Shown: positions 4,694-60,985 of the stretch, in pieces
Position numbering within the stretch: position 1 is the first letter of the stretch
Layout: every line of letters begins with the position of its first letter
DNA from: a virus
Virus record (IMG/VR): IMGVR_UViG_3300025941_000026
Span: 1-60,985 of that record
Direction: 5' to 3' (one strand)
Length of the DNA: 60,985 nt
Position numbers and translations under genes: made by a program
The notes under the pieces: model-generated
What the model was told of the DNA's origin: nothing
Database searches by the model: none
What the model saw: the letters and a program-made list of their open reading frames with translations, nothing else

Positions 4694-4704
4694 AAAAGTG
4701 TGTG

Positions 4705-4716
4705 ACTACAGTCACG
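4705..4716. repeat. ACTACAGTCACG element, copy 2
   Basis: Intergenic copy in the 64-base gap upstream of the MoxR gene. Here it is part of the inverted repeat GTGAC-TACA-GTCAC, which hints at a dimer-binding site. No -35/-10 pair of good spacing was found with it. Confidence 0.55.
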
Positions 4717-4736
4717 GTTGAGTACTGCAAGGGTCA

Positions 4737-5290: not shown

Positions 5291-5580
5291 AAGCCCTCCA
5301 TCATGATCTTGATATAGAACTCCGCCAGATCAGCATCGCTTAGCATCCCCCATGGAGTACCATAATTGGCACGCTTCCACTTGGTAGACCAAATGCCTTC
5401 CTCGCACCAGTCTTCACCCTTATATTTCTCCAGTTTCCATGCGGGGTACTTACCAAGAAGTGTGGTGCCGTTATATACGCCGTACCATTCTGTATCATCA
5501 GCACTACCCCTTCTCGGTACGGCATTAGCTATCCAGCCCATCTCCTCCAGGTGGGCAATCATCTTCTCGCGGGGGATCAC
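5287..5580 (-). CDS. LEGW-family small protein, divergent (97 aa)
   Basis: Begins MIPREKMIAHLEEMGW, a divergent form of the signature with AHLEEMGW for AWLTLEGW. The middle is rich in Trp, Gly and Tyr (WYGVYNGTTLLGKYPAWKL, WCEEGIW), and the C-terminus DADLAEFYIKIMMEGL matches the family helix. It overlaps both neighbours by four bases. Function unknown. Confidence 0.7.
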   Translation of the reverse strand: MIPREKMIAHLEEMGWIANAVPRRGSADDTEWYGVYNGTTLLGKYPAWKLEKYKGEDWCEEGIWSTKWKRANYGTPWGMLSDADLAEFYIKIMMEGL

Positions 5581-6509: not shown

Positions 6510-6514
6510 AATTT

Positions 6515-6527
6515 TCTCCTGATAGAT
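6515..6527 (-). promoter_or_regulatory. Conserved leader before the DUF3150-like gene
   Basis: Minus strand ATCTATCAGGAGA, six bases from the start codon. A further ATCTA lies 15 bases upstream, so part of the leader is duplicated. Confidence 0.55.
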
Positions 6528-6544
6528 GGTGTTACTAGATAGTG

Positions 6545-6736
6545 TTACTGGTATCCGTCGTACAGTTCGTAGCCGTAAAGTTTCAGTTCGGGGAAATATA
6601 ACTCGATGAGAAACGCAGGCAGTGCCATGCCTAGCTTATCGGAACGGAACGACTCCACCGTGCCAAAGTCATCTACGTAGAAACAGATCCCCTCGCTGTC
6701 GCGGTAAACTCCCATGCGCTGGTAAATCTTGTCCAT
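6545..6736 (-). CDS. Hypothetical acidic protein (63 aa)
   Basis: Not recognised. It starts MDKIYQRMGVYRDSEG and ends with an aromatic, acidic segment (YFPELKLYGYELYDGYQ). It lacks the LEGW signature. SD AGGAGG lies directly upstream, and 27-bp palindrome copy 2 stands 15 bases before the start codon, so its mRNA leader can fold. Confidence 0.6.
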   Translation of the reverse strand: MDKIYQRMGVYRDSEGICFYVDDFGTVESFRSDKLGMALPAFLIELYFPELKLYGYELYDGYQ

Positions 6737-6750
6737 GGTTCCTCCTATCC

Positions 6751-6777
6751 GACACTCGGTTGTCTCAACCAGTTGTC
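6751..6777. repeat. 27-bp palindrome, copy 2
   Basis: Arms GACACTCGGTTG and CAACCAGTTGTC. It overlaps the stop codon of 6765-7031, supplying its last codons Thr-Thr-Gly-stop, and ends a few bases before the SD of 6545-6736. Its location fits a structure acting on translation or on mRNA ends between the two genes. Confidence 0.7.
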
Positions 6778-7031
6778 GTTTCGATTGCCTCGTAAATCAG
6801 TTCGTCGGGGATAGTCTCAGCCCGTAGACTCTCCCATGTGGATAGTTCGTACTCATCATGGTATTCTTGATGCCAGTCGCCGATATGTTCCCATTGGATA
6901 TCGCGTAACCTACTGTTTGTGCTGTGGATACATCCTTTATCCCCAATGATACGTGCGTCCTGCATCAGTCGCCGCGGCTCATACCCCGCAAGGATCAGCA
7001 TGGAGATCTTCTGCTCTGTCGTTAGTTTCAT
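6765..7031 (-). CDS. LEGW-family small protein, TEQKISMLILAGYEP variant (88 aa)
   Basis: Begins MKLTTEQKISMLILAGYEP, then ARIIGDKG, then STWESLRAETIPDELIYEAIE, matching 2980-3264 and 3251-3508 along its whole length. The last codons are formed by the palindrome at 6751-6777, suggesting that insertion of the palindrome set the present C-terminus. The start lies 53 bases inside the 3' end of 6979-7269. Function unknown. Confidence 0.75.
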   Translation of the reverse strand: MKLTTEQKISMLILAGYEPRRLMQDARIIGDKGCIHSTNSRLRDIQWEHIGDWHQEYHDEYELSTWESLRAETIPDELIYEAIETTTG

Positions 7032-7269
7032 AGTGCACCTTTGGGGCGGTTACGTCAACCCGGCCTTTTATCTGTTCGATGGATCGGCGATGGACGCCTT
7101 TAAATTCCGAAGCTTTCGCTTCTCGCAGCGCGCGCTGTTCCTGCGCGGCCGTAATCGTTGCCGTCATGCTCTGCATGCAGGCATCATGGGCTTGGTCAGC
7201 CCGGTCTAAATCTTTCGTACATTCAGCGATCGCTTGTAGGATATTCTCAAGCGGTAATTGTGTGTCCAC
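6979..7269 (-). CDS. Hypothetical protein, helical (96 aa)
   Basis: Not recognised. Residues 1-65 form a charged helix with regular Leu/Ala spacing (ENILQAIAECTKDLDRADQAHD, ITAAQEQRALREAKA), probably coiled coil, followed by a basic and then an acidic tail. The last 53 bases overlap the next gene out of frame, so the C-terminal part may be less constrained. A TATAAT box lies 29 bases upstream. Confidence 0.55.
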   Translation of the reverse strand: MDTQLPLENILQAIAECTKDLDRADQAHDACMQSMTATITAAQEQRALREAKASEFKGVHRRSIEQIKGRVDVTAPKVHYETNDRAEDLHADPCGV

Positions 7270-7297
7270 GATACGCTCCCTAGTTAGCGTTGGACGG

Positions 7298-7303
7298 ATT
7301 ATA
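7298..7303 (-). promoter_or_regulatory. Candidate -10 box (TATAAT)
   Basis: Perfect TATAAT on the minus strand in the 38-base gap upstream of 6979-7269. No convincing -35 is found at 16-18 bases, so this is only a candidate internal promoter. Confidence 0.35.
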
Positions 7304-7307
7304 CTTT

Positions 7308-7589
7308 TTATGCCCAGCCTTTATTTACTATTTCATCATAAAACTGTTCCATCAGCCTATCATCAACGATATGGACGGGTAGATGTTGCATCCCTGGATC
7401 GTCTAAGGCAGCACCGTTTAAGCTTAAGCAGTCTTTATCCCAGCTACCCACTTTGCAATCGTCATCGCTTATCCATACGCTAAGATCGCGCTCGCGATGC
7501 ATCAAACCCAAACTGTTTGCAGAGATAAACCATACCACTGGCTCCCACCCTTCAATCGCCAGCCAGGCGCGGATTTGATCGGGGGTCAT
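7308..7589 (-). CDS. LEGW-family small protein (93 aa)
   Basis: Begins MTPDQIRAWLAIEGWEP. The middle contains WISDDDCKVGSWDKDCLS, and the end is DRLMEQFYDEIVNKGWA. It follows the 42-codon membrane protein by one base. Function unknown. Confidence 0.75.
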   Translation of the reverse strand: MTPDQIRAWLAIEGWEPVVWFISANSLGLMHRERDLSVWISDDDCKVGSWDKDCLSLNGAALDDPGMQHLPVHIVDDRLMEQFYDEIVNKGWA

Positions 7590-7590
7590 G

Positions 7591-7719
7591 TTATTTCACC
7601 AGCGCTTGCAGCATAGCCATCCGTAGTGCGGCGCCTTGCGTGACTGTAGTAATTGCTACTGCGCCGCATGACCATGCGACCACGAGGATTGCGGCGGCGA
7701 TGAGAGGGAAGTGTTTCAT
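7591..7719 (-). CDS. Small membrane protein (42 aa)
   Basis: Starts MKHFPLIAAAILVVAWSCG and has one strong hydrophobic segment (residues 4-26), then TTVTQGAALRMAMLQALVK. It could be a single-pass membrane protein or an exported peptide; a clear lipobox is absent. The start overlaps the stop of 7716-7991 as ATGA. The ACTACAGTCACG element lies inside it, in the opposite orientation to the other four copies. Confidence 0.6.
   Translation of the reverse strand: MKHFPLIAAAILVVAWSCGAVAITTVTQGAALRMAMLQALVK
7639..7650. repeat. ACTACAGTCACG element, copy 3 (inverted)
   Basis: Read on the minus strand, within the 42-codon membrane protein gene where it encodes Thr-Thr-Val-Thr. The only copy in this orientation. 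Confidence 0.5.
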
Positions 7720-7991
7720 AGTTTGCGCTCCAATATCAGTTTTACAGCGCCTATGGCGTGCTCCGGGAAATGGCCCACGGGATAAATTTCGTCCTTGTTG
7801 TGGTAGTGCCCCGGCTGTCTAAACTCCAAATCCACGTTCCACTTTACAAGACAGATATCCAGTTCATCGCCATCCCACCGAACCGATTTGTTATGCTGGC
7901 CGTTATCGCGCACCCATAGCCATACCGAGGATACTTTGATGATAACGAACCGTTCCAGCATCAGCCACGCCAGTGCTTGCTCGGTATTCAC
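7716..7991 (-). CDS. LEGW-family small protein, LERF variant (91 aa)
   Basis: Begins MNTEQALAWLMLERFV, so the LEGW core is replaced by LERF while the preceding helix is intact. The middle (WLWVRDNGQHNKSVRWDGDELDI) is Trp-rich; the end HAIGAVKLILERKL keeps the C-terminal helix. Overlaps both neighbours by four bases. Function unknown. Confidence 0.7.
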   Translation of the reverse strand: MNTEQALAWLMLERFVIIKVSSVWLWVRDNGQHNKSVRWDGDELDICLVKWNVDLEFRQPGHYHNKDEIYPVGHFPEHAIGAVKLILERKL

Positions 7992-49551: not shown

Positions 49552-51137
49552 TTCCCCATCTCCTTCCTATAAAGTTCAAGGATCGACTCCTGCGAGTCGC
49601 GCCGGTCTTGCACCATCTTGTAGATCGCCTTCTCCAGCTCGTTGGCATATATCCGCAGAATGGTCATGTTCTTCGTCTGCCCTGGCCGGTTGATACGGTC
49701 CATCACCTGGCCGGTTTCGTCGCTGGAATAGATCGGCGCGTAGAACACCAGCATGTCGGCCTGGGTCAACGTCAGGCCGTGGGCCATCACCTTCGGGTGG
49801 CAGATCAGTTCGTTCAGGTTCGGATCATCACGGAATGCTTGGAAGATCCGGTTGCGCTCGGCCACCGATACATCGCCATTCACGATCTCGCAATACTTAC
49901 CATCGCCGGCCTTGTCGTGGTACTCCTGCACTTCTTTCTTCAGTTCGTGCACGATGCCTTTAAATGGAACGATCACCAACGTCTTGGCGGCGGCTTGCTC
50001 GATAGCTTCCAGCAAAACGTTCAGGCGTGGGCCATGTGGTAGCACCATGTACTCCTCGGTGTCCGGGTTCTTCACGGCGCCGCAGAGGATTTGCCGGAGC
50101 TTACCGATCTTATCCGCTGCGTTCACCGCTGTGATCTGCTCACCAGTCTGCGACTGAGCCACCAGATAGTTCTTCATTTCCGTGTACGCCTTGGTCTGTT
50201 CAGGCGTCAGTTCGCACTGGCGATTCAGGTATGTCACTGGTGGCAGCTGTAGACAATCGGACTTCTTGAACCTGATGGCTGGCTGCAGCGCCTTGAATGC
50301 TGTCTCATGCGAGCCCGGCTTGGGCACCCACTTGTAGGTCGATACTTGATTCATGGTCAGCTTCTTGAAGCTGGTGAAATAGTCCGGCACTTTCGAAGGA
50401 TCCACCAGTCGGGCCAAGGCCCACGCATCGGTCGGCGCATTCGGGCATGGGGCACCCGTAGCCAGCCATAGCTTGCGCTTCTCAGCAACACGTTTCAGTA
50501 CGGCGTAACGGGAAGTCTGTCCATTACGATATGATGCGGCCTCATCTACGATCACCAGGTCGATATCCTTGCGCTTCAGGAGCTCGCCCTCGATCACCTT
50601 CAGGCCGTCGTGGTTGATGATATAGAAGTCCACCTCCTTTGCCAGCAGATCCTTGCGTTTCTCGGCGCTACCGTGCAGGATCACTGCGCTACGATGCATG
50701 CACACGTCGAAGATCTCGTTCCGCCATACCGGCTCCAGGGTTGATAACGGGGATACAATCAGCGCACGCTTGATCGCGCCGGCATGCATCAGGTAGTCCG
50801 CCGCCCAAAGGATGCTGGCCGTTTTGGATGTCCCCATCTCGTTCAATACGAAGCATCGATTGTGCAGAGTCAAAAAATCCGCAGTCGCCGTCTGGTGGTC
50901 GAAGACCTTATCGAAGCGGGCCGGCCGCGGCCAGTTGTAATAGTTACGAATCGGACCAGGCGCCTTGATACCCATGTTGTTGAGTACCTTGACCATCTTG
51001 AGGTTATGGGGAACCGCAAGATTGTGGCCTTCGTGGTTGATATCTCGGGTGTGTTGCGGGAACAGCGTCTTAAGCGTCTGCAGTTTCTCCGGCCGGAGGC
51101 GCAGTAGCAGCGATTTGCTCGGTGTATGCACCAGCAT
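49548..51137 (-). CDS. SNF2-type helicase (529 aa)
   Basis: SF2 DNA translocase. Q-like motif HQTATADFLT (81-90), motif I NEMGTSKTAS (99-108), motif II VDEAASYRN near 193, motif III TGAPCPN, and in the second lobe KVMAHGLTLTQADML and RINRPGQT (motif VI, near 495). It lacks extra domains. It may assist replication, recombination or removal of host proteins from DNA. The first 68 bases overlap the gene at 51070-51255. Confidence 0.85.
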   Translation of the reverse strand: MLVHTPSKSLLLRLRPEKLQTLKTLFPQHTRDINHEGHNLAVPHNLKMVKVLNNMGIKAPGPIRNYYNWPRPARFDKVFDHQTATADFLTLHNRCFVLNEMGTSKTASILWAADYLMHAGAIKRALIVSPLSTLEPVWRNEIFDVCMHRSAVILHGSAEKRKDLLAKEVDFYIINHDGLKVIEGELLKRKDIDLVIVDEAASYRNGQTSRYAVLKRVAEKRKLWLATGAPCPNAPTDAWALARLVDPSKVPDYFTSFKKLTMNQVSTYKWVPKPGSHETAFKALQPAIRFKKSDCLQLPPVTYLNRQCELTPEQTKAYTEMKNYLVAQSQTGEQITAVNAADKIGKLRQILCGAVKNPDTEEYMVLPHGPRLNVLLEAIEQAAAKTLVIVPFKGIVHELKKEVQEYHDKAGDGKYCEIVNGDVSVAERNRIFQAFRDDPNLNELICHPKVMAHGLTLTQADMLVFYAPIYSSDETGQVMDRINRPGQTKNMTILRIYANELEKAIYKMVQDRRDSQESILELYRKEMGK

Positions 51138-51255
51138 GTTGGTCCTTTAGGCGTCTGATTTCCCGCGCCAGAGCAATACAGGCGCGGGGGAATTTGTTAA
51201 GGTGGCCGTTGGCCTCAGCTTCGTCAGCCAAGGCCAAGGCTTCGTCGAGGTCCAT
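51070..51255 (-). CDS. Hypothetical protein (61 aa)
   Basis: MDLDEALALADEAEANGHLN, then FPRACIALAREIRRLKDQHA, ending in an Ala/Pro/Thr tail. Helical and charged; unknown. One base overlap with 51255-51449, and a 68-base overlap with the SNF2 gene that covers the low-complexity tail only. Confidence 0.55.
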   Translation of the reverse strand: MDLDEALALADEAEANGHLNKFPRACIALAREIRRLKDQHAGAYTEQIAATAPPAGETADA

Positions 51256-51449
51256 CAGTGGAAGAACGCATATGCCAGACAGGCAAATACCGCAGCACCT
51301 GCTACTACACCAGCAACGCGTTCATAGAACGACATAGGGTTGATTTCAGGTTCGCCTTCGGGATAGGCTTCCTCATCGTAGCTCTCCGCGATCTGGTCGA
51401 TCGGGTACACCTTAGCCGCGGTCAGTTTTGGGTCAATTTTGTTGTCCAT
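51255..51449 (-). CDS. C-tail-anchored membrane protein (64 aa)
   Basis: An acidic soluble part (MDNKIDPKLTAAKVYPIDQI, then YDEEAYPEGEPEINPM) is followed by a C-terminal transmembrane helix (residues 45-63, VAGVVAGAAVFACLAYAFF). Tail-anchored topology is unusual for a phage protein; role unknown. Confidence 0.6.
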   Translation of the reverse strand: MDNKIDPKLTAAKVYPIDQIAESYDEEAYPEGEPEINPMSFYERVAGVVAGAAVFACLAYAFFH

Positions 51450-51540
51450 TTTTGCTCTCCATCTCTTTCAGTTTCAAGGCTAGATACATTGCGGCTGATC
51501 CCACTGGGATACCAAGCAACAGACCAATAACTACTCCCAT
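51433..51540 (-). CDS. Small membrane protein (35 aa)
   Basis: MGVVIGLLLGIPVGSAAMYL, then a charged end (LKLKEMESKNGQQN). One transmembrane segment. It overlaps both the VRR-NUC gene (10 bases) and 51255-51449 (17 bases). Confidence 0.55.
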   Translation of the reverse strand: MGVVIGLLLGIPVGSAAMYLALKLKEMESKNGQQN

Positions 51541-51827
51541 GACATCGCCTCCAGATACGCTTTCAACTCCGCCAGTCCCTGCATTTCGTTGACAAGAAAG
51601 ACGAAACCCCCGGCGGCCCGGATTTCATTCATGGTGATTTCTTGCCTCGCGGTCGGCTGTTTATTCCCAGCCTTAGTTTCAATTGCTATAAAGTATCCTT
51701 TGTAACTGCAAATAAAGTCAAGCGAAGGCTTACCGAACGCCGCCTGCACTGGCATGTGGTAATAGACTCCGAACTTCTTGAGGAGTTTTTTTACCGCCTC
51801 CTTGACCTTAGACTCGGGCGTTGGCAT
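51531..51827 (-). CDS. VRR-NUC domain nuclease (98 aa)
   Basis: A stand-alone nuclease of the PD-(D/E)XK superfamily. MPTPESKVKEAVKKLLKKFG, then FGKPSLDFICSYKGYFIAIE and TKAGNKQPTARQ: Asp in SLDF and E-x-K in IETKAG form the active site, and FVLFVNEM-like GGFVFLVNEM ends the core. Such VRR-NUC proteins resolve DNA structures. AGGAGAAGG stands nine bases from the ATG at 51827, which is why the longer frame is rejected. Confidence 0.85.
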   Translation of the reverse strand: MPTPESKVKEAVKKLLKKFGVYYHMPVQAAFGKPSLDFICSYKGYFIAIETKAGNKQPTARQEITMNEIRAAGGFVFLVNEMQGLAELKAYLEAMSWE

Positions 51828-52110
51828 GGGGCGCCTTCTCCTGCACTTCTTCGTACAGCAAGGCGATATGCCCAGCGGGGAACGTACTCCAATCCTCCAG
51901 TACATACGTGTTACTGGAGTTAGATGGCGACGTATGCCACCACCCAAGGGCGCTATCTGTGACCAAGTCCGGCTCGTCGTCGCATAGATAGCAGTATACA
52001 GTACCCCAGTCCGGGTGCTCGATCCAATGGGCGGGTCTACTACCGGAGGCTATGCGAATTGGCACCCACCCCTCCAGCGTCAGCCAAGCGATCATCTGTT
52101 CACGGTTCAT
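51808..52110 (-). CDS. LEGW-family small protein (100 aa)
   Basis: Begins MNREQMIAWLTLEGWVP, nearly identical to 599-883 over the first 16 residues and their DNA. The middle (RIASGSRPAHWIEHPDWG, then VYCYLCDDEPDLVTDSAL) is unique. C-terminal helix HIALLYEEVQEKAPHA. It is directly upstream of the VRR-NUC gene with a 20-base overlap. Function unknown. Confidence 0.75.
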   Translation of the reverse strand: MNREQMIAWLTLEGWVPIRIASGSRPAHWIEHPDWGTVYCYLCDDEPDLVTDSALGWWHTSPSNSSNTYVLEDWSTFPAGHIALLYEEVQEKAPHANARV

Positions 52111-52113
52111 ACG

Positions 52114-52389
52114 TCACCTCCATTTCCTTTCTTCGCGGTATACGGCAGCGAATAGCTTTCGGAACCATGGGTCAGGTATCGCGCTCCAGTCCAGAGGTTC
52201 TACCGGAGCTTTCTTCTCGTTTATGGCCATACTTGTCAATACCACTGGATGCCCGGTGGTGCGCCATTTGCCGTTCATTAACTGCCGCGCCTGGTATCGC
52301 TTGAATGGAACCCACCCGTCGAGGGCCAATGTGTTCTCCTGTTGCTCGCGGGTCATGAAACAAAGCATATAGTGCCAGTTGTTGGCCAT
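52114..52389 (-). CDS. LEGW-family small protein with short N-terminal extension (91 aa)
   Basis: The signature is MTREQQENTLALDGWVPF, preceded by an eleven-residue extension MANNWHYMLCF; the upstream start is kept because GGAGGGTAAG sits directly before it. The middle includes RYQARQLMNGKWRTTGHPVV, and the end is DPWFRKLFAAVYREERKW. It begins one base after the Cas4-like gene stops. Function unknown. Confidence 0.7.
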   Translation of the reverse strand: MANNWHYMLCFMTREQQENTLALDGWVPFKRYQARQLMNGKWRTTGHPVVLTSMAINEKKAPVEPLDWSAIPDPWFRKLFAAVYREERKWR

Positions 52390-52390
52390 C

Positions 52391-53053
52391 TTACCCTCCG
52401 TGATATTCGCAACTCGTCACCGCGCAGAACTTCCCGCACAGTCCGGACTTCTTCGGAGGGAAGACCCCCATATCGAAGTAACCCTTGTAGCGCTTTAGCT
52501 TCGGCAGCAGGAAGGCCCACAGCTCAGGGATCTGCGCGCGGGTGAACGTCTCTTTGTCCTGCGCGAAGTCATGCTGCGTCCAGTGGAAAGCGCAATGGCA
52601 GGTCTGGATCTCCGGATGGTGATAAAACACCAGCAAGGCGAAGATGATCAGCTGCTGCAAGTTCTTCTTGCGGTTCTTCCCGGTCTTATGGTCATCGATC
52701 CACGCCACCTTACCATCCAGCGTCAGCACGTCTATGATCCCCCGACCCCATACGTTCTCGCCCAGGAACTCGCAGGGCTGCAGCTTGCTGTCTAGTGCGT
52801 ACTGCTGCTCCACCAGCAGCTTACCCTTGCGGCTCTTGAACTTGTCGAGGTAGTCTTTGTACGCCCAGATATCGAAGTGCAGCACGCCGCCGTTCAGATA
52901 GGTTTCCGCGTGCTTGTGGAAGTTATCCCCCCACACCGAGGCCGCGTTCTTTTTATCCTGAAAGTTCCGCAGGACTTTTATTTCCTCATACTGGCGGGGG
53001 CAGGTCTCGACGGCTTCGAGGGAGGAGTGTGACCATGGAAGTGGGCGGGTCAT
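52391..53053 (-). CDS. Cas4/RecB-like PD-(D/E)XK exonuclease with Fe-S cysteines (220 aa)
   Basis: A nuclease with Cys18 (CPRQ) and three C-terminal cysteines at 206, 210 and 215 (CGKFCAVTSC), the arrangement of a 4Fe-4S cluster as in Cas4, AddB and related exonucleases. The active site is His45-region GDNFHKHAE, GIIDVLTLDGKVAWIDDHKT with Asp and D-x-K. In phages such proteins trim DNA for recombination. It stands between the family genes in the replication arm. Confidence 0.8.
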   Translation of the reverse strand: MTRPLPWSHSSLEAVETCPRQYEEIKVLRNFQDKKNAASVWGDNFHKHAETYLNGGVLHFDIWAYKDYLDKFKSRKGKLLVEQQYALDSKLQPCEFLGENVWGRGIIDVLTLDGKVAWIDDHKTGKNRKKNLQQLIIFALLVFYHHPEIQTCHCAFHWTQHDFAQDKETFTRAQIPELWAFLLPKLKRYKGYFDMGVFPPKKSGLCGKFCAVTSCEYHGG

Positions 53054-53322
53054 TCTTTTGCCCCACTCACGCAGCGGTAAATCGCGGCTACGTAATGGTG
53101 ACCGAACGCATCCAAATATTCATCCCAACTAACATCGTTTTCGCCCGCGTGATACGAAGCGCTACCAAAAGATCCAAAGCACCCTCCACCATCGTCGTAA
53201 CACCATGGATCGTCACTGTGCGTGTCCGCCACAAGGTTTGTCCCTTCGCGTCGCATGTCGCCGTCAGAGGTCGGAACCCACCCCTCTAGCGTCAACCAGG
53301 CAATCATCTGTTCGCGGGTCAT
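53050..53322 (-). CDS. LEGW-family small protein (90 aa)
   Basis: Begins MTREQMIAWLTLEGWVP. Middle: SDGDMRREGTNLVADTHSDD, and a Gly/Ser-rich part (DDGGGCFGSFGSASYHAG). End: GHHYVAAIYRCVSGAKE. Coupled by four-base overlaps to the Cas4-like gene and to 53319-53618. Function unknown. Confidence 0.75.
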   Translation of the reverse strand: MTREQMIAWLTLEGWVPTSDGDMRREGTNLVADTHSDDPWCYDDGGGCFGSFGSASYHAGENDVSWDEYLDAFGHHYVAAIYRCVSGAKE

Positions 53323-53618
53323 TTCATCCCCTCCTTAATCATCTTCACCAGCTTCTGGATCTGGCGTTCAGGGACTTCACTGTGGTGGATAACTGTCCAT
53401 CCGCCAGGTACGTCATTACCAAGGTGGCGCGCCGGCGAGATACGCGGCTTCAAGCCTACCGAATCATAGACCACCCAATCCGGATGACGCATAGATACAC
53501 AGTAGCGGTTTCCGAGCTTGGAGCGCAGCCAGGAGGCATCTGTTTCGCGGAGACAGAACTCCCAGCCGTCCATGCCCGTCTCTAGCTTTAGCCAGTTAGC
53601 AAATTGTTCGTCAGTCAT
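53319..53618 (-). CDS. LEGW-family small protein, divergent signature (99 aa)
   Basis: MTDEQFANWLKLETGMDGWEF: the LEGW core is expanded by four residues between LE and GW. This shows the helix and the GW unit are separable. The middle has RETDASWLRSKLGNRYCVSM and PRISPARHLGNDVPGG; the end is ERQIQKLVKMIKEGMK. Function unknown. Confidence 0.65.
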   Translation of the reverse strand: MTDEQFANWLKLETGMDGWEFCLRETDASWLRSKLGNRYCVSMRHPDWVVYDSVGLKPRISPARHLGNDVPGGWTVIHHSEVPERQIQKLVKMIKEGMK

Positions 53619-53728
53619 TTCGAAATCTCCATCAGGATAAGCGTAGCCCCTATGAAACCGAGCCCGAGAATAGCGCCCGCCATAAAAGCGAACGCCAGCC
53701 CGAATGCCGTACGCGAATAACGCCTCAT
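53615..53728 (-). CDS. Small membrane protein (37 aa)
   Basis: MRRYSRTAFGLAFAFMAGAI, then LGLGFIGATLILMEISK: almost entirely one membrane helix or a hairpin of two. The start overlaps the stop of the HNH-like gene and the end overlaps the next start, so it is truly in the operon. Confidence 0.6.
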   Translation of the reverse strand: MRRYSRTAFGLAFAFMAGAILGLGFIGATLILMEISK

Positions 53729-53994
53729 TTCATCCCCCCATCCTTCTTCCTCGGGAAGCTGCGGTTGGCATGCTCAGTTTTCACCCGCAGGTTGCTGCGC
53801 TCGGTCATGGCGCCACCTTTGACCAAGGGCTTCTTGTGGTCGACATCTTTGCCGTCGCCAACTTTCACAAGACCCTCTTTCATCATGATGCGCCTGGCAC
53901 GGTTACGTGCTGCGCGCTTGGGTTTCTCACCGCGGGCGTTGGAGGTCTTGGTTTCCTGAGCGATGTCACGAACATAATTTTTACTTGATGGCAT
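53725..53994 (-). CDS. HNH-like protein (89 aa)
   Basis: A short basic protein. After MPSSKNYVRDIAQETKTSNA comes a Lys/Arg-rich part (GEKPKRAARNRARRIMMKEG), then DVDHKKPLVKGG and SNLRVKTEHANRSF, the D-H and N-H spacing of HNH endonucleases. The same small protein is known from T7-like and other phages. Chosen start 53994 has AGGAGAAG upstream. Confidence 0.7.
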   Translation of the reverse strand: MPSSKNYVRDIAQETKTSNARGEKPKRAARNRARRIMMKEGLVKVGDGKDVDHKKPLVKGGAMTERSNLRVKTEHANRSFPRKKDGGMK

Positions 53995-54274
53995 GGTCTT
54001 CTCCTGTGTTCCAATTGTAGCGGGTGCCATTGGCGGTTGTGTATGACAAGAAAAATTTTCCGCTATTATCGTTGACTATATCGAAGCGCCCCCCGCAGTC
54101 AGAAATTTTCTCGCCCGTATGCTCAAGCCATGTACTCACCAGTTCGCCTAGGGTATGCCCGGAGGCCATTTTGCGCATATCGAGACCCTCATAACCACGG
54201 CAAAACTCAATCCACTCCGGCATCAGCGGATACCCCTCGAGGATCCAATAGTTGCGTTCCTGTTCGGGGGTCAT
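53981..54274 (-). CDS. LEGW-family small protein, NYWILEGYP variant (97 aa)
   Basis: Begins MTPEQERNYWILEGYPL. The middle has FCRGYEGLDMRKMASGHTLG and GEKISDCGGRFDIVND, the end NGTRYNWNTGEDHAIK lacks the usual LYxxI helix. The start at 54274 overlaps the Lar-like gene by four bases; a longer frame is disfavoured. Function unknown. Confidence 0.65.
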   Translation of the reverse strand: MTPEQERNYWILEGYPLMPEWIEFCRGYEGLDMRKMASGHTLGELVSTWLEHTGEKISDCGGRFDIVNDNSGKFFLSYTTANGTRYNWNTGEDHAIK

Positions 54275-54462
54275 ACATCCTCCAGTACCCGATCGTTCCA
54301 TGCTTGCGCGGCCGCGTCTTTAGGCCAGGCGCCGTTTACCTTGGTGCTGACCGGGAAGCTCTTGGTGGATGCCCCGCATTCGATGCACTCGACGAAAAAT
54401 ACCGAGAAGCTGTGCACCAGGTCGGGCTCGCCGCCGCAGTCACATTTTCTAAGGAATTTCAT
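54271..54462 (-). CDS. Lar-like restriction alleviation protein (63 aa)
   Basis: A zinc-ribbon protein: CDCGGEP (8-14), VECIECGAS (24-32), then AAAQAWNDR near the end, the C-x-x-C-G...A-x-x-x-W-N pattern of the Lar family. Lar of the Rac prophage modulates the EcoKI restriction system, so this protein may help the phage against type I restriction. The fit is by motif only. Confidence 0.65.
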   Translation of the reverse strand: MKFLRKCDCGGEPDLVHSFSVFFVECIECGASTKSFPVSTKVNGAWPKDAAAQAWNDRVLEDV

Positions 54463-54637
54463 GATCTTCCACCTTGATCACCGTATAGCCGTACTTGGCC
54501 AGGTTATCCGAGGACAACTGCACCTCGAACGGTACGCCGGTGCCGCCTTGCAGCTTGGCGCGCTTGGTCTCTTTGTCCAGGTGCAGAATCTCGAATTTCA
54601 GTCCTTCATGCTTGGTCGATTTCAAAAACCATTTCAT
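54449..54637 (-). CDS. Hypothetical protein (62 aa)
   Basis: MKWFLKSTKHEGLKFEILHL, a strand-rich small protein with KAKLQGGTGVPFEVQL and YTVIKVEDHEIP. Short proteins of this type (pI basic, beta) are common in phages; unnamed. Overlaps both neighbours. Confidence 0.6.
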   Translation of the reverse strand: MKWFLKSTKHEGLKFEILHLDKETKRAKLQGGTGVPFEVQLSSDNLAKYGYTVIKVEDHEIP

Positions 54638-54738
54638 TTCGTCAGCCCCTTATAGATGATGTACATGCCGGCCAAAGGTAGGCCGCAACAGATGGTCGAT
54701 GCGCCTAGCGCTACTACAGTCACGATATCAGTGAACAC
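54634..54738 (-). CDS. Small membrane protein with GTG start (34 aa)
   Basis: (M)FTDIVTVVALGASTICCGL, then PLAGMYIIYKGLTK, one membrane helix. No ATG is available, but GTG at 54736-54738 has AAAGGAG nine bases upstream and the end overlaps the next ATG as ATGA. The ACTACAGTCACG element is within it (54713-54724) and encodes IVTVVA. Confidence 0.55.
   Translation of the reverse strand: MFTDIVTVVALGASTICCGLPLAGMYIIYKGLTK
54713..54724. repeat. ACTACAGTCACG element, copy 5
   Basis: Inside the 34-codon membrane protein gene, the only copy in the right arm apart from the terminal repeat. Confidence 0.55.
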
Positions 54739-54922
54739 TGGCGTCTCCTTTAGCGGTCTCCACAGCTTCTTCTATGGAGCGCCGGGCATACTCGGCCGCG
54801 GCTTCCAGTTCCGGCGTACCTTCGCCAGCCGCGATCTTCTTCCGCGCATCTTCGTACAGCTGCACGCATAGTGCCAGCAGTTCATCTTTGGACATGTCGT
54901 CCAGGTTATCAATAGAATCCAC
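54728..54922 (-). CDS. Hypothetical protein (64 aa)
   Basis: MDSIDNLDDMSKDELLALCV, then a charged Ala/Glu-rich helix (PELEAAAEYARRSIEEAVE). Entirely helical, acidic; not recognised. Confidence 0.55.
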   Translation of the reverse strand: MDSIDNLDDMSKDELLALCVQLYEDARKKIAAGEGTPELEAAAEYARRSIEEAVETAKGDASVH

Positions 54923-55199
54923 GGATCACCTCGTTGTAGATTTCTTCCATATCCTTATGAGGTATATCACCCCAATCGCAGTCTCGCTCTATAAGCGCGA
55001 AAGTGGGGTTTCTGGCACCCCTGCCATGCCCTCCATCATGATCTCGGTTAGGACGGCGACCAAATACATACTTGTCATTGCAACGCACACCGTAATATAC
55101 GTGGCGCGCTTCGGTTGCCGGGTGCACCCAAGGCGCCCACCCCTCCAAAATCAACCACGCTACCATTTGCTCAGGACTTAGCTTTCCCATATCGCTCAT
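54909..55199 (-). CDS. LEGW-family small protein, SPEQMVAWLILEGW variant (96 aa)
   Basis: Starts MSDMGKLSPEQMVAWLILEG followed by WAPW; the first eight residues are an extension. The ATG at 55199 has GGGGG six bases before it. Middle: RHVYYGVRCNDKYVFGRRPN and a Gly/His/Arg loop (RDHDGGHGRGARNP). End: HKDMEEIYNEVIRGFY. Its 5' part overlaps the DNA polymerase gene by 29 bases. Function unknown. Confidence 0.75.
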   Translation of the reverse strand: MSDMGKLSPEQMVAWLILEGWAPWVHPATEARHVYYGVRCNDKYVFGRRPNRDHDGGHGRGARNPTFALIERDCDWGDIPHKDMEEIYNEVIRGFY

Positions 55200-57072
55200 G
55201 GAAACCCCCTTCACTGTTAAGCGGAAGATCCGGAGCCCAGTCCGGGGGAATCCGCATGTTCGACAAAAGCTTCTCCAGCACGTAGGGGGCGTAGAATAGT
55301 TTCGTCACGAAAACCCCCTCATCATGCACCGAATGCACCCATTTGGCAATATCCCTACACTCCTGCGCAGTTTTGCGGCATTGCTCAAAAACAATAATCC
55401 TTGCCAAACACTGAACAATATTCTCGATCAGCTTGGCGCCGTAAATCTTCTCCCGTTCCTTCCCGTTCCAGAACGTCCACTCTCCACCCCACCCTTGCGC
55501 TGCCTTCTTGAACTGCAGGTCAGGGAACAGGATCTTCATGCCGCCGGGCATCTGCAGCCCGTCCTTGCAGGTCTTGACGATCCCCCGATAGTCCACATCC
55601 ACTCCACAGCGGCCTTCGGCAATGGCGCGCAGGGCGTCCCCGCCGCGCTTCCAGAGCTTCTGGACCTGGGTGTGTGCATCCCGATAAATCCCCACAACCT
55701 CCTTGGAGAAATCGAGGGTGATCACCAGTGGCTTCTTGTTCGCGTCTTTCGCTTGGGACCGAACGGCCGACACGAATTTCTCATGCCCCATCCCGAAGCC
55801 CAGCCCCAGCTTGGCTACCTTACCCATCTGGCGTTCCATCGGATGATCATCCTTGAACACTGGCCGCTTATAGATTCTGCTAGCCATGACACAGTATACA
55901 TCCGGACCTTCCTTTCGGTCAGCCTTTCGGTACACCTCCACCATGTCATCCTGTCCGGCGAGCCAGTCTGTAATCCTCGCCTCAATGTTCGATGAGTCCC
56001 CTACCGCGCACACTTCGCCTTGCTCTGCTACCACGGCATCCCGCAGCGGGGAGCCCCGTTTCATGGACTGCCAGTTGAACTTATCACCACCCGAAAGCCG
56101 GTGTGTACCAGATGCTCCTGAATATTTCAGATACACCGTCGCCGGCCCACGACCCGCCATGCTGATTAGGCGCAGGGCGCCTTTCTCCGCGATCGTGGTC
56201 TTGTTCTCCAGCCGCGCCTCCACTACCGCCTGTACGCGCTCGTCCTCATGCTCCTGTAGCTCCTGCATAGCCTTGTCGGTCTTGGAGAAAGCATACACCC
56301 ACTCCTTGGCAGGATCGCGATCCTCAGGCGGTTTCTTCAGCCAGGAGGGCGACTGCTTCATCGGCGGTTCGACGCCCAGGTCCAGCAGCACTTGGGCGAA
56401 CTTCTGGTTCGACATAACCGAGTCTTTATCAACCCCCGCCTCCTCCAGCAGCCGTGCCTTGTTCTCCGCCAAGTCCTTGGCGTACTGCTCCAGCACTGGC
56501 ACGTCCAGCCGCAGGCAAGGTTCCGTGAACATGCGTATGATCCGATCGTGGATCTCCAGTTCCTGCCGAGAGAATTGAGGCAGCATCCGATCGGCCAGAA
56601 GTTTGCAGATATCCGTGTCCCGTACCGAGTAATTACCGTATCGCTGCAAACCGGCCGCGTCAAAGTCTGCCAGCCGCATCCCCTTGACGTTGTGTACCTC
56701 ATGCCCCTTCGCCGGCAGCCCATAACGTTCTGCCAGTTTCTCCAGCGATAGGCGGCCGTTGGCGCCATGCAGCGCGCGCGCCATACCCAGCGTGCAGAGA
56801 TTGAGCTTAGGCCGGATACCGAAGTGCCAGTTGTCGATCAGCCCATCGAAGTGTCGATGGTGTGAAAGCACCGCGTTATGCTCCAGGTCCAGCCGCTGCA
56901 GTTCGCGCTTGATATCCGGCCCGGGCACCCAATATGTCGGAGCGTTGTCGACTTTGATGGACACCAGTATAGCTTCGAAACGCGGATCACGGACATACTC
57001 CTCCGTGGTCATCTTCGAGAGGGAGTAATCGGCGGAGTAAAAGCTTTCATAGTCCAGTGTGATTAGTTTCAC
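55171..57072 (-). CDS. DNA polymerase, family A with 3'-5' exonuclease (633 aa)
   Basis: Replicative polymerase. The exonuclease has exo I TLDYESF (Asp7, Glu9) and exo III YSVRDTDI. Polymerase motif A is GDSSNIEARI near 363, motif B RQMGKVAKLGLGFGMG near 416 and motif C VHDEG near 592. The exonuclease domain is short, so the whole protein is more compact than E. coli Pol I and like other phage family A enzymes. It would work with the PrimPol/DUF927 protein. Coupled by four bases to the family gene upstream. Confidence 0.92.
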   Translation of the reverse strand: MKLITLDYESFYSADYSLSKMTTEEYVRDPRFEAILVSIKVDNAPTYWVPGPDIKRELQRLDLEHNAVLSHHRHFDGLIDNWHFGIRPKLNLCTLGMARALHGANGRLSLEKLAERYGLPAKGHEVHNVKGMRLADFDAAGLQRYGNYSVRDTDICKLLADRMLPQFSRQELEIHDRIIRMFTEPCLRLDVPVLEQYAKDLAENKARLLEEAGVDKDSVMSNQKFAQVLLDLGVEPPMKQSPSWLKKPPEDRDPAKEWVYAFSKTDKAMQELQEHEDERVQAVVEARLENKTTIAEKGALRLISMAGRGPATVYLKYSGASGTHRLSGGDKFNWQSMKRGSPLRDAVVAEQGEVCAVGDSSNIEARITDWLAGQDDMVEVYRKADRKEGPDVYCVMASRIYKRPVFKDDHPMERQMGKVAKLGLGFGMGHEKFVSAVRSQAKDANKKPLVITLDFSKEVVGIYRDAHTQVQKLWKRGGDALRAIAEGRCGVDVDYRGIVKTCKDGLQMPGGMKILFPDLQFKKAAQGWGGEWTFWNGKEREKIYGAKLIENIVQCLARIIVFEQCRKTAQECRDIAKWVHSVHDEGVFVTKLFYAPYVLEKLLSNMRIPPDWAPDLPLNSEGGFHERYGKAKS

Positions 57073-57353
57073 CAGGGTCGCTCCTCACGTTGCTCTCTGT
57101 CCGCGAGAATAGACTTGTATAATTGGTACAGTGGGTGTAAGCCTAATTCTTCAAATCGAGCTGGAATCCGGTTTTCGCAATAGACGTAGTCTACGTACCG
57201 GTCCCATGTATCGGGTTTATCCATATACCGCTGCAGTTCATCTTCCCCATCCCGCGCTGCCCATACGTAGCTACCTTCCGCACCAATAATGGGGGCTTTA
57301 TTTAAAACTACGCCTTCCAGCGTCAGCCAAGCGATCATCTGTTCACGGTTCAT
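57069..57353 (-). CDS. LEGW-family small protein (94 aa)
   Basis: Begins MNREQMIAWLTLEGVV: the signature up to LEG is exact but Trp is replaced by Val. Middle: KAPIIGAEGSYVWAARDG, YMDKPDTWDRYVDYVYCE. End: LYQLYKSILADREQREE. It starts at the stop of the winged-helix gene and leads into the polymerase gene. Function unknown. Confidence 0.75.
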   Translation of the reverse strand: MNREQMIAWLTLEGVVLNKAPIIGAEGSYVWAARDGEDELQRYMDKPDTWDRYVDYVYCENRIPARFEELGLHPLYQLYKSILADREQREERPW

Positions 57354-57688
57354 AATTCCCTCCGCAATCCTTCGAAAAATACTTCAGCGTGCCCGTCACC
57401 TAAGCGGTCGGCCGAACCCCAGCCACGCCACAGGTCTTGCATAATTGCATGTTGCGGCCGCGCGGAATCATCGGCAAAAACTTTGGCGGCGTAGGACCAG
57501 CCGCGCGAATTGCGCTTGCGCCAGAAGTCAGGGAACTTTTCATCCCCGAGCATATACCTCAGGGAGTTCGCCAGTTCCAAAGGTTCGACGCCCAGCTGGT
57601 TAGCGATCTCTGTAGGCTTTAACGGGCGCGGCGCAGCTTTCAAGACTTCGTAGATCTTCTGGCGCAGATGGGGGGTGTGAGGTTTCAT
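57350..57688 (-). CDS. Winged-helix protein (112 aa)
   Basis: Residues 9-55 form a winged helix: KIYEVLKAAPRPLKPTEIAN, then LELANSLRYMLGDEKFPDFW with SRGWSYAAK as wing. It could regulate early genes or the polymerase operon. C-terminal part is less defined. Overlaps by four bases at both ends. Confidence 0.6.
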   Translation of the reverse strand: MKPHTPHLRQKIYEVLKAAPRPLKPTEIANQLGVEPLELANSLRYMLGDEKFPDFWRKRNSRGWSYAAKVFADDSARPQHAIMQDLWRGWGSADRLGDGHAEVFFEGLRREL

Positions 57689-57981
57689 AAGGCACCCGCT
57701 TCAATAAGCGCCTCGTACATGCCCCGCAACGGCGACTCCGGTATATCATACAAGGATTGCCAAGTAAGATTACGGTCTTTCTCAGAAGGCTCGTGCGAGT
57801 ATATATCGATCCATTCATACTTGCCCCCGTATCGTCTCTCGCCGGCTAAGTCTCGCCATACTATGCCATTAACCCCACGGCGCTTCAGCCCTTGCCAATC
57901 CTGCGGATCACCAACAGCCTCCCACCCGCTAAGCGTAAGTATGTTACGGATTTGGTCGATACTCAACTGGGATATCTTCAT
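57685..57981 (-). CDS. LEGW-family small protein, LTLSGWEA variant (98 aa)
   Basis: Starts MKISQLSIDQIRNILTLSGW, so Ser replaces Glu in LEGW. Of two adjacent ATGs the inner one has better SD spacing. The middle includes QDWQGLKRRGVNGIVWRDLA and KYEWIDIYSHEPSEKDRN, and the end LRGMYEALIEAGAL is typical. Function unknown. Confidence 0.7.
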   Translation of the reverse strand: MKISQLSIDQIRNILTLSGWEAVGDPQDWQGLKRRGVNGIVWRDLAGERRYGGKYEWIDIYSHEPSEKDRNLTWQSLYDIPESPLRGMYEALIEAGAL

Positions 57982-58249
57982 CATCAACTCCTTGAACTTT
58001 CGCCTGGTTATAAAAGCCATGTGGGTGATTATCGCACAACCAATGCGTATGCCTATGGGGGAAAGGGCGGCCGGTTAGCATGGACGGTCCATCGCAATAG
58101 CATACCGGCCGGGGATCTTTGGCTTGGAACTCCACCCGCCACGATTGGGCGCCGCAGACGCATTTCGGTACGAACCTGTACTCCTCCGGATGCACACTGG
58201 ACTTCCTCCGCCGGCGGCACTTACGACACCTGATTGGCCACAGCTTCAT
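57944..58249 (-). CDS. Cys-rich zinc-binding protein (101 aa)
   Basis: MKLWPIRCRKCRRRRKSSV, then FVPKCVCGAQSWRVEFQA, VCYCDGPSML and WLCDNHPHGFYN: four pairs of cysteines or histidines give one or two zinc knuckles (C-x-x-C ... C-x-C). The basic start suggests nucleic-acid binding. It lacks the family signature and overlaps both family neighbours (29 and 38 bases). Confidence 0.6.
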   Translation of the reverse strand: MKLWPIRCRKCRRRRKSSVHPEEYRFVPKCVCGAQSWRVEFQAKDPRPVCYCDGPSMLTGRPFPHRHTHWLCDNHPHGFYNQAKVQGVDDEDIPVEYRPNP

Positions 58250-58499
58250 AAAGAAGTTTCAGGTCTTCATCGTGGAGGTGATCGAGTGGCATGAAATCCG
58301 ATGGGTCCATACTAGGACTTCTATCGCCTCCACCGGCAACTTTAGCCATTCGTTCACCAGAAACAACGGGACAAAAGTAATAGCCCGTATCGCATCGGAT
58401 GCCAGGGCCTTCCCAGCTAGTTACATCTCCATAATACTTGCACTTATGCGAAGACCACCCCTCGATCGTCAGCCAGGCAATCATTTGGTCGCGCGTCAC
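58221..58499 (-). CDS. LEGW-family small protein (92 aa)
   Basis: Begins MTRDQMIAWLTIEGWSS. The next part HKCKYYGDVTSWEGPGIRCD matches 58496-58795 (HCCEEYGDVFP, LTGPGIW), so this adjacent pair is a tandem duplication. The end is DEDLKLLYEAVANQVS. Function unknown. Confidence 0.75.
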   Translation of the reverse strand: MTRDQMIAWLTIEGWSSHKCKYYGDVTSWEGPGIRCDTGYYFCPVVSGERMAKVAGGGDRSPSMDPSDFMPLDHLHDEDLKLLYEAVANQVS

Positions 58500-58795
58500 G
58501 GTTCATCCCCGTTATATTTAACCGCAGCATCGTAAAGGAGCTTCAGGTGATTATCACTGAGGCGATCCAAGGATGTAGGGCATTTCCTGGCGCGCCGCAT
58601 ATCCGGTTCCATACAGGAGTCGTTCACAATCACACTGCTCCCAGCCAGTACATAGGCGTACATATCAGGATAACGCCATATGCCCGGCCCTGTTAACGAG
58701 TCGGCCGCGCTAGGGAATACGTCGCCGTACTCCTCGCAGCAATGCGATTCATACCCCTCCAGCGTCAGCCAGGCAATCATTTGGTCGCGCGTCAT
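58496..58795 (-). CDS. LEGW-family small protein (99 aa)
   Basis: Begins MTRDQMIAWLTLEGYES. Shares CEEYGDVF, GPGIW and DRLSDNHLKLLYDAA with the neighbour 58221-58499; the middle (MYAYVLAGSSVIVNDSCMEP) differs. The start overlaps 58792-59169 by four bases. Function unknown. Confidence 0.75.
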   Translation of the reverse strand: MTRDQMIAWLTLEGYESHCCEEYGDVFPSAADSLTGPGIWRYPDMYAYVLAGSSVIVNDSCMEPDMRRARKCPTSLDRLSDNHLKLLYDAAVKYNGDEP

Positions 58796-59169
58796 GCTTC
58801 GCCTCCATCGTCCCATACGCCCACCGCCGCGGACACTTGGTCGCTACGACCAGTTGTCGGAACCTGCTTGTTTTTTACAGCCCACATCGCAGCTTCTTCT
58901 ACCGAAGCGAAGCCTACGGCCTTAACAGCCATGTCGATCAGCGCGGTGCGCGCTGAAGTGAAACCCATCTGCTGGGCCAGCTCATCCAGGTTGGAGCCGT
59001 CGTCTTTACGGCGCGGAGCTTTGCGCTGTTCAGGGCCGGCGTAATTCTTCGCCCGGGTTGCGGCCGCGCGCTTGGTCATTGCGCTGCGCTCCTCTTTGGT
59101 CATGTTGGCCATCCGTGCGCGCAGGCGATCACCGGCGGCTTTACGCATTTCTTCAGTCCAGTTACCCAT
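58792..59169 (-). CDS. Basic helical protein containing a palindrome (125 aa)
   Basis: MGNWTEEMRKAAGDRLRARM, AATRAKNYAGPEQRKAPRRK, then a helical unit LDELAQQMGFTSARTALIDM and VKAVGFASVEEAAMWAVKNK. Basic first half, possibly DNA-binding. The palindrome 58832-58858 encodes PTTGRSDQVS near the C-terminus. Start 59169 chosen for GGAAAG upstream. Confidence 0.6.
   Translation of the reverse strand: MGNWTEEMRKAAGDRLRARMANMTKEERSAMTKRAAATRAKNYAGPEQRKAPRRKDDGSNLDELAQQMGFTSARTALIDMAVKAVGFASVEEAAMWAVKNKQVPTTGRSDQVSAAVGVWDDGGEA
58832..58858. repeat. 27-bp palindrome, copy 7 (inside a gene)
   Basis: Arms GACACTTGGTCG and CGACCAGTTGTC, in 58792-59169. Read in the same frame as copy 4, giving TTGRSDQ. 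Confidence 0.7.
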
Positions 59170-59171
59170 GA

Positions 59172-59381
59172 TTACTTTCCTTTCGCTTTCCATTTGCAGC
59201 CTTTGCAGGCTGGGCTGTTATTAAGTATAGACCACTGGCATGATTTAGTCATTACATGGTCGACGTATTCATACTTCGGAATTCTTACAGGGGCTCCACG
59301 TTCCTCGCGTTCGTAGTAGCCATTCTGTACAACGAGTTTCTCCTTGAATGGCGGGTGGTTATAGCAGGCTGGCTTTTTCAT
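59172..59381 (-). CDS. Cys-containing small protein (69 aa)
   Basis: MKKPACYNHPPFKEKLVVQN, RGAPVRIPKYEYVDHVMTKS, then CQWSILNNSPACKGCKWKAK: Cys/His spacing (C-x2-H ... C-x11-C-x2-C) suggests one zinc or Fe-S site. Basic; not recognised. Confidence 0.55.
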   Translation of the reverse strand: MKKPACYNHPPFKEKLVVQNGYYEREERGAPVRIPKYEYVDHVMTKSCQWSILNNSPACKGCKWKAKGK

Positions 59382-59595
59382 AAAACACCTTTACTGTGCT
59401 GTCCTGAATCCTGAACCATTCAGTTCTCTGCGCGTCCCTGCCCCAGGAAGTTGGATTGAAATACGATCCACCTTGCCCGATGCGCTCAACCCCACGCTTG
59501 ATACTTCGATACCATAAGCCTCTACTTTTATCGAAGTACTCGTAGAGTTCCCACCCCTCCAGCGTTAGCCAGGCGATCATCTGTTCTCGGTTCAT
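59359..59595 (-). CDS. LEGW-family small protein (78 aa)
   Basis: The shortest member, beginning MNREQMIAWLTLEGWEL. The middle has YEYFDKSRGLWYRSIKRGVE and QGGSYFNPTSWGRD; the end is DSTVKVFYEKASLL. Upstream in-frame ATGs are rejected because they lie inside the preceding gene and break the family pattern. Function unknown. Confidence 0.75.
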   Translation of the reverse strand: MNREQMIAWLTLEGWELYEYFDKSRGLWYRSIKRGVERIGQGGSYFNPTSWGRDAQRTEWFRIQDSTVKVFYEKASLL

Positions 59596-59858
59596 AGCAA
59601 CCCCGCTTTGCGCATCGTACGCCGCAAAGACGCCGCGCATTTCAGCCCTACCTTATCCCACGGCTCGACGTGAAAATGGTCCGCTGATGGAATACTAACG
59701 CTATTCTGTACCCCATGCCGACAAGCGGCGTATCCATAAATCCGAATGCATTTATCCGCGTTGTGGAGGAAAATTCCATATTCACCTTGTCTCGATTGGT
59801 ACGCCACCCAGCCATCAAGAATCAACCAATTGATGAATCGGCTGTAGTTCATCTTCAT
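59592..59858 (-). CDS. LEGW-family small protein, divergent start (88 aa)
   Basis: MKMNYSRFINWLILDGWVAY: RxxQ is replaced by YSRF but NWLILDGW is clear. Middle: QGEYGIFLHNADKCIRIYGY. End: CAASLRRTMRKAGLL. AGGAGGGG precedes the start. The end is very like the neighbour 59855-60133 (IRKCLRQEGLL). Function unknown. Confidence 0.7.
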   Translation of the reverse strand: MKMNYSRFINWLILDGWVAYQSRQGEYGIFLHNADKCIRIYGYAACRHGVQNSVSIPSADHFHVEPWDKVGLKCAASLRRTMRKAGLL

Positions 59859-60133
59859 AGCAACCCCTCCTGCCTCAAACATTTGCGGATCGCTGCTAGA
59901 TGGCGCGCGGGGATCTTTTCGAATGGGAAGGGCGGATAAGTGTCTCCACCACCCCATTCATGGCACTCAGAATCCCACTCCAATGTTCTGGCGTATTTAC
60001 TAGGATGGCTCCCGATCAGCGCATTACCTGTGGACAGGTTATACAACAGCGGCCAGATCCTGCGGGGATCTTTATATTGGCAGCACTCCCACCCTTCCAA
60101 TATCAGCCAGGCCGTGAATTGGGCGCGGTTCAT
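59855..60133 (-). CDS. LEGW-family small protein (92 aa)
   Basis: Begins MNRAQFTAWLILEGWE. Middle: CQYKDPRRIWPLLYNLSTGN and ALIGSHPSKYARTLEWDSE. End: RHLAAIRKCLRQEGLL. Four-base overlaps on both sides tie it into the run 59359-60408. Function unknown. Confidence 0.75.
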   Translation of the reverse strand: MNRAQFTAWLILEGWECCQYKDPRRIWPLLYNLSTGNALIGSHPSKYARTLEWDSECHEWGGGDTYPPFPFEKIPARHLAAIRKCLRQEGLL

Positions 60134-60408
60134 TTTTTATTACCCATGTTTCCCGCCACTACTGCAAAATGCCGTAGCTCACCAATATCGAACGCCTTCC
60201 ACATAGCATTAACAACCGGCGCGTTCTCGTACTTTATCTCTCGCGGTTCGATATAGTGGTCGCGGATATAGACCCCTTCCCGTACGATTACATGTTCTTG
60301 ATTAGTCCTCGTACGGTAGATTGTTTTTGGTTCCCACCCTTCGAGGATCAGCCATGCCTCGATCTGCCGGCGCTCCTTGCGCCAGAAAATATCTTGTAGG
60401 ATGCCCAT
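60130..60408 (-). CDS. LEGW-family small protein with altered N-terminus (92 aa)
   Basis: MGILQDIFWRKERRQIEAWL then ILEGWEPK: the signature begins at residue 13, behind an extension. Middle: RTRTNQEHVIVREGVYIRDH; end: HFAVVAGNMGNKK, without the usual LYxxI. Function unknown. Confidence 0.7.
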   Translation of the reverse strand: MGILQDIFWRKERRQIEAWLILEGWEPKTIYRTRTNQEHVIVREGVYIRDHYIEPREIKYENAPVVNAMWKAFDIGELRHFAVVAGNMGNKK

Positions 60409-60411
60409 GAC

Positions 60412-60639
60412 CTACTCCATATTCTTCACAAGTTCTTTCAGCGCATCGAAAGCCACCGAGGGGGGGTTGATGTTCGTCGCGTGCAGCGCCTGGCCGGCGG
60501 TAAAGGCTACCACCACGAAGGGGATGCGCTCACCGGACAGGTCGATCAGGAAACGATCCACGGCGCCCACCAGCTGGGGGAGTTCATCGACGATCTTGGC
60601 AGTAGCAGCTGGCAGCTGGGTCTGGTCTTGGTCAGTCAT
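60412..60639 (-). CDS. Hypothetical protein (75 aa)
   Basis: MTDQDQTQLPAATAKIVDEL, then PQLVGAVDRFLIDLSGERIP and ALKELVKNME. A small helix-strand-helix protein without the LEGW signature. It overlaps the family gene 60632-60883 by eight bases. Not recognised. Confidence 0.55.
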   Translation of the reverse strand: MTDQDQTQLPAATAKIVDELPQLVGAVDRFLIDLSGERIPFVVVAFTAGQALHATNINPPSVAFDALKELVKNME

Positions 60640-60883
60640 TTGGTTTTCCTTTCAGGATCAGATTGTAGAATTGTCGCACGGTTGTAGCAGGGCAAGTATC
60701 CCATGGCGCGCTGGGAGGGAATGGATGCGCGTCTGTCGCATGCGGGCTAGCCCAGTACACATGGCCATCATCGTCGATTGCCCGCTTACCATTCCCTAAA
60801 CAGGATGGATACCAATGCGCATCCGCTGGCCGATATTCCCACCCCTCGATCGTCAGCCAGGCGATCATCTGTTCTCGGTTCAT
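60632..60883 (-). CDS. LEGW-family small protein (83 aa)
   Basis: Begins MNREQMIAWLTIEGWEY. Middle: DAHWYPSCLGNGKRAIDDDG and a Pro-rich bit (AHPFPPSAPWDTC). End: TTVRQFYNLILKGKPND. Its start lies in the terminal repeat, so its 5' end is also at 1-34. On the circular map the next gene upstream is 71-331. Function unknown. Confidence 0.8.
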   Translation of the reverse strand: MNREQMIAWLTIEGWEYRPADAHWYPSCLGNGKRAIDDDGHVYWASPHATDAHPFPPSAPWDTCPATTVRQFYNLILKGKPND

Positions 60884-60975
60884 GCCGCCTCCTCCTTACT
60901 ACAGTCACGAGATACGATTTCATGACGCCTCCTTGTGCTTAACCAACGTATCGTATAACTGGCCAAGCAGATCGT
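60850..60975. repeat. Terminal direct repeat, right copy
   Basis: Identical to 1-126. After 60975 the sequence departs from the left copy (base 127 onward would read CCGGTACGG) and instead reads ATCTCGTGAC. Confidence 0.9.
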
Positions 60976-60985
60976 ATCTCGTGAC
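60971..60985. other. Fold-back end, probable assembly artefact
   Basis: The last 15 bases (ATCGTATCTCGTGAC) are the exact reverse complement of 60904-60918 (and of 55-69). The switch occurs at a shared ATCGT, as expected for a snap-back chimera or graph artefact. If real, it would be an inverted repeat at the molecule's end. Confidence 0.6.

Follow-up and report, generated by a model that had tools for sequence, protein, structure and literature searches.

Some 28 small minus-strand genes in the window, by which we mean the whole 60,985-base virus record IMGVR_UViG_3300025941_000026, form one paralogous family whose shared start reflects mainly constraint on the protein. Our best explanation, to which we assign a probability of about 0.58, combines constraint on a first helix with common descent of the 5' ends, fast-diversifying bodies, and occasional gene conversion. 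The first-pass annotation had drawn attention to six of these genes and had read their starts as a recombination seam, behind which bodies are exchanged while expression signals are kept; that exchange model, and its role in keeping expression signals, is not established by the evidence below.

Profile searches of the window find 28 family members, which sit between core genes in two minus-strand stretches, the first with 13 family genes (71-7991) and the second with 15 (51808-60883); the two become one if the record is circular. The core genes are phage-like. Ten large proteins were scanned, with terminase, head-tail adaptor, primase, helicase, and DNA polymerase among them, and neither a reverse transcriptase nor a template repeat, as in a diversity-generating retroelement, was named in this set. 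Many core genes align with five IMG/VR relatives, the polymerases being 49-62% identical. By polymerase, named relatives are distant, with 35% for Rhizobium phage RHph_TM3_14A and about 32% for Pseudomonas phages Rollin and KPP25, and a megablast search with 50000-60985 matched no named phage. Core gene order around the two family-filled gaps is conserved with the relatives, which have far fewer copies there.

At E<=0.001 the family profile finds five members each in G005 and G008, four in G013, and two each in G001 and G002; G003, G004, G039, G041, and G048 have none, and neither do the stretches retrieved from phages Rollin and RHph_TM3_14A. The best E-value in a reversed-sequence control was 0.24. 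A search of 47 further records with the window alignment gave matches at E<=0.1 only in G008 and G013, and two nearer fragments, 4.8 and 7.4 kb long and with major capsid proteins 96% and 99% identical, held no family match. Degenerate DNA patterns of the 5' block had no match in IMG/VR; an alignment-derived pattern matched nine stretches, none of which was confirmed. A tblastn search with the family consensus for members in named phages returned three weak records, with E-values of 1 or more, that were rejected, and the libraries offered no credible name for a known family or fold. The portions of the literature available to us describe neither the family nor any coding-start joint in phages. 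The family is a lineage-specific, strongly expanded, unnamed set of small proteins that evolve fast and are encoded in the replication region of the phage; its position suggests host-directed or accessory replication-phase proteins. In G005, a single open frame (L036:10327-10863) gives two matches to the family profile, which suggests an in-frame double-domain version of the protein.

Two members were modeled with AlphaFold2, both with family alignments, which may draw the models together. The model for gene 60632-60883 has helices at residues 3-12 and 66-79, with four strands followed by a short helix between them (mean pLDDT 78.8, pTM 0.67), and had no fold match at E 0.001. The model for gene 599-883, which has one of the bodies most difficult to relate to the rest, has a helix at 3-12, three strands, and a helix at 77-91 (pLDDT 74.9, pTM 0.65). 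The conserved block therefore corresponds to the predicted first helix and the Gly-Trp that follows it.

The six genes first singled out are all open frames as described, two of them (599-883 and 59359-59595) starting at internal ATGs of longer frames. Three, dispersed along the window, make up cluster A: 599-883 (5' block 839-883, MNREQMIAWLTLEGW), 51808-52110 (block 52066-52110), and 57069-57353 (block 57309-57353, with GV in place of GW), the last of which shares 4 nt with the DNA polymerase gene 55171-57072. Cluster B consists of 59359-59595 (block 59551-59595) and 60632-60883 (block 60839-60883), and the sixth gene, 53050-53322, carries a block (MTREQMIAWLTLEGW) that is common mainly at the protein level. 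Two further clusters lie outside the six. Cluster C is a tandem duplicate, 58221-58499, which has a GTG start, and 58496-58795; cluster D comprises 3251-3502, 2980-3261, and 6765-7025, which resemble one another at both ends. All of these genes are on the minus strand.

The starts had been called near-identical even at silent positions. The first 39-45 nt are indeed alike in all six genes, but silent positions are not uniformly so, as 51 of 155 silent comparisons differ. Ungapped identity among the six is 0.83-0.96 per 9-nt bin from nt 3 to 38 and 0.21 from nt 48 onward; ahead of the gene it stays at 0.21-0.28, reaching 0.46-0.51 only across the ribosome-binding site and start codon. The likeness at the DNA level runs from the start codon to codon 15, with uniform limits rather than staggered tracts. 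That these limits match the start codon, codon 15, and the predicted first helix argues for the helix-based explanation; the same exact limits, with flanks that are not shared, argue against a recombination joint. Nor does a role in keeping expression signals find support, since identity over positions -16 to -1 is 0.30 in the family and 0.30 in other minus-strand genes.

There is one exception upstream. The neighbors 4737-5021 and 5018-5290 have a 9-nt run in common, and 5018-5290 therefore has the same junction at both ends. Near-identical junctions, comprising ribosome-binding site and start, lie at either end of both 5018-5290 and 59592-59852, as expected of tandem duplication units.

Behind the block, the six genes had been said to differ completely. 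All 15 pairs of their bodies are at chance as DNA, but as protein five of the six match a profile built from other members (p from 0.001 to 0.039), the exception being 599-883 (p=0.40). The broader idea that bodies are unrelated also has to be given up for most of the family: when each body was left out in turn, 18 of 28 matched the profile of the others at p<=0.05 and 14 at p<=0.01, while ten, 599-883 included, failed; these tests overlap, and a combined p assumes independence. Toward the 3' end, the bodies of clusters C and D do show clear likeness as DNA. Scored with the window body profile against 851 small-ORF controls, 11 of 17 bodies from relatives rank in the top 1.6%, a result favored by the partial selection of those bodies with a body-including profile, and the other six are indistinct from the controls. 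None of the relatives compared shares a body with the window; by major capsid protein, the nearest long contigs reach 82% and 79% identity.

Silent sites tell constraint on residues from likeness of the DNA itself. In the block of the six genes, 104 of 155 same-residue codons are identical, a third differing, compared with expected fractions of 0.42 from genome usage (p=0.0005), 0.46 from minus-strand usage (p=0.001), and 0.51 when codon preference is taken, position by position, from other members (p=0.0055). Pairwise silent identity, in counts that reuse genes, ranges from 10/11 (599-883 with 51808-52110) down to 3/10 (53050-53322 with 57069-57353), and gene 53050-53322 is near chance against three of the other five. 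In the bodies of the six, 84 of 220 silent codons are identical, against 78.8 expected. Eight genes designated MIAWLT also show an excess in the block, with 167 of 269 silent codons identical (p 0.0005, 0.0015, and 0.0145 under the same three nulls). Seventeen other members are at chance (345/794, or 0.435 vs 0.413, p=0.24), in a count from which two cluster D near-copies were dropped and the out-of-register gene 53319-53618 was omitted. Within relatives, 155 of 380 block silent codons are identical against 135.7 expected, an expectation derived from long open frames rather than curated genes. A G013 pair has 12 of 13 block residues in common, with 3/10 silent codons and no likeness between bodies, and a G005 pair likewise has 12 of 13 residues in common and 3/11 silent codons. 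Silent sites being at or near chance in other members and relatives, the long-term conservation is therefore that of the protein. Within the family, the eight MIAWLT genes are a younger subgroup with a modest silent excess in the block, and this likeness at the DNA level in about eight genes is suggestive of exchange between copies without proving it.

The alternative on which this excess bears first is that the 5' block is itself a recombination joint, at which gene conversion homogenizes copies or internal crossovers attach new bodies; we consider it possible but doubtful. It is favored by cluster A, where starts are 0.86-0.98 identical in nucleotides and 27/33 at silent codons, yet the bodies have no detectable mutual likeness (z from -0.3 to 0.6), so that the histories of block and body look decoupled. 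This decoupling counts against the helix-based explanation, as do the ten bodies that fail the profile test. In clusters B, C, and D, starts are alike and bodies are alike (z of 4.5, 8.5, and 7.8-9.4, respectively), and swapping cannot explain such matching bodies. Over the family, the bodies of MIAWLT genes, tandem pair excluded, resemble each other (mean z 0.90, 27 pairs) no more than they resemble other members (0.93, 152 pairs; p=0.68). Start and body likeness have a Mantel correlation of 0.14 (p=0.03), which falls to 0.05 (p=0.26) when three near-copies are removed.

The comparison of synonymous divergence proposed in the first-pass annotation came out as it had anticipated, and did so even in whole-gene duplicates. 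Silent codons in clusters B, C, and D are identical in 45/53 cases in the block and in 39/85 among well-aligned body codons (p=5e-6, with non-independent pairs), so silent likeness in the block exceeds that of homologous flanks, the pattern looked for in gene conversion. Residue constraint alone does not give such uneven silent divergence along whole duplicates, a point against the helix-based explanation. Body swapping fails to account for this excess because the bodies in those clusters match; the excess could come from block conversion or from a restraint acting on the region.

The block of the eight MIAWLT genes is mostly tree-like: of 21 site pairs, five are incompatible, whereas randomized columns give 11.3. 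All five conflicts trace to codon 12, which is ATC in 58221-58499 and 60632-60883; these two genes have this codon and a 24-nt run in common, contrary to the rest of the block. The conflict would favor a joint if it marks one conversion tract, but it may instead record a repeated Leu-to-Ile change, and gene 7308-7589 too has Ile at codon 12, with a different codon. The matching junctions of 5018-5290 also fit a joint; swapped bodies, however, were not seen in the relatives, none of which is close. Taken over these results, short-tract homogenization of 5' ends is plausible in a limited role, chiefly in cluster A, and body swapping is unproven. A reading in which the first 45 coding bases are an in-frame joint bounded by the start codon, with the phage coupling one new body after another to an unchanging helix and so building a host-directed repertoire, strikes us as unlikely.

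Selection at the nucleotide level on the first 45 coding bases, as a translation start, regulator site, or recombination or packaging signal, is quite unlikely, although two codons point that way. The Gly-14 codon, before an aromatic residue, is GGG in 19 of 25 family genes (for example at 840-844 and 52067-52071), against an expected 0.20 before T (p=2.6e-9 if independent). Thr-11 is ACG in 10 of 10 family genes and in all four LTL-type genes of relatives; ACG is preferred before Leu (24/59), more weakly than at Thr-11. Against such selection, six other block codons (Glu-4, Gln-5, Ala-8, Leu-10, Leu-12, and Glu-13) are at chance across the family, as are the 17 other members overall; the block Gly codon of relatives is GGG in only 4 of 14; and RNA folding of the 45-nt block found no consensus pairs.

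The ends of the record look like a circular assembly with a fold-back artifact: bases 1-126 are identical to 60850-60975, a 126-nt overlap inside a family start, and this is followed at the 3' end by a 10-nt fold-back tail, the reverse complement of 55-64. Because the ends overlap, the start of gene 60632-60883 is present twice, and it was entered once in counts. That the assembler copied the repeated starts in general is very improbable, as such an artifact accounts only for the copy at 1-34; each of the remaining starts is flanked by sequence of its own, and they vary at silent sites.

The explanation we prefer, helix constraint with common descent, would run as follows. A family of about 28 small proteins, predicted to consist of a helix, a small sheet, and a helix, has multiplied between conserved replication-region genes. 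Codons 1-15 encode the predicted first helix; they are far better kept as protein than the remainder and silently free in most members and in relatives. The near-identical DNA of some starts would then come from helix constraint together with recent common descent of 5' ends. The bodies may diversify quickly through substitution, insertion and deletion, and perhaps segment replacement, selected for new targets, and some block copies probably stay alike because short tracts are now and then converted between them.

A parallel is offered by the PeSLs, reportedly mobile regulatory cassettes of T4-type phages, in that short DNA repeats where genes begin are proposed as the joint by which small genes are shuffled. 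PeSLs lie between genes and carry a promoter and a stem-loop. Here, in contrast, the likeness lies within the coding start and stops at the ATG, with no shared regulatory DNA upstream (the -16 to -1 identities given above) and no stem-loop in the 45-nt block, the only part folded. Expanded families of small, fast-evolving early-region genes are a general kind among phages, and the present family resembles them in its small genes packed between replication genes without a library name, but differs in that a 61-kb record holds some 28 copies of this one family. Members in G005, G008, G013, G001, and G002 have the same pattern of helix, Gly-Trp, Trp, and C-terminal helix and occupy similar places between core genes, but number only two to five copies, with start sequences of their own and silent sites near chance.

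The lesson is mainly methodological: a strongly conserved first helix can mimic a DNA seam, and codon-level nulls that draw on other members and relatives tell the two apart. Sets like this one, of small replication-region proteins that are strongly expanded and evolve fast, may act on the host, and a joint bounded by the start codon, if true, would be a simple way to renew such a repertoire.
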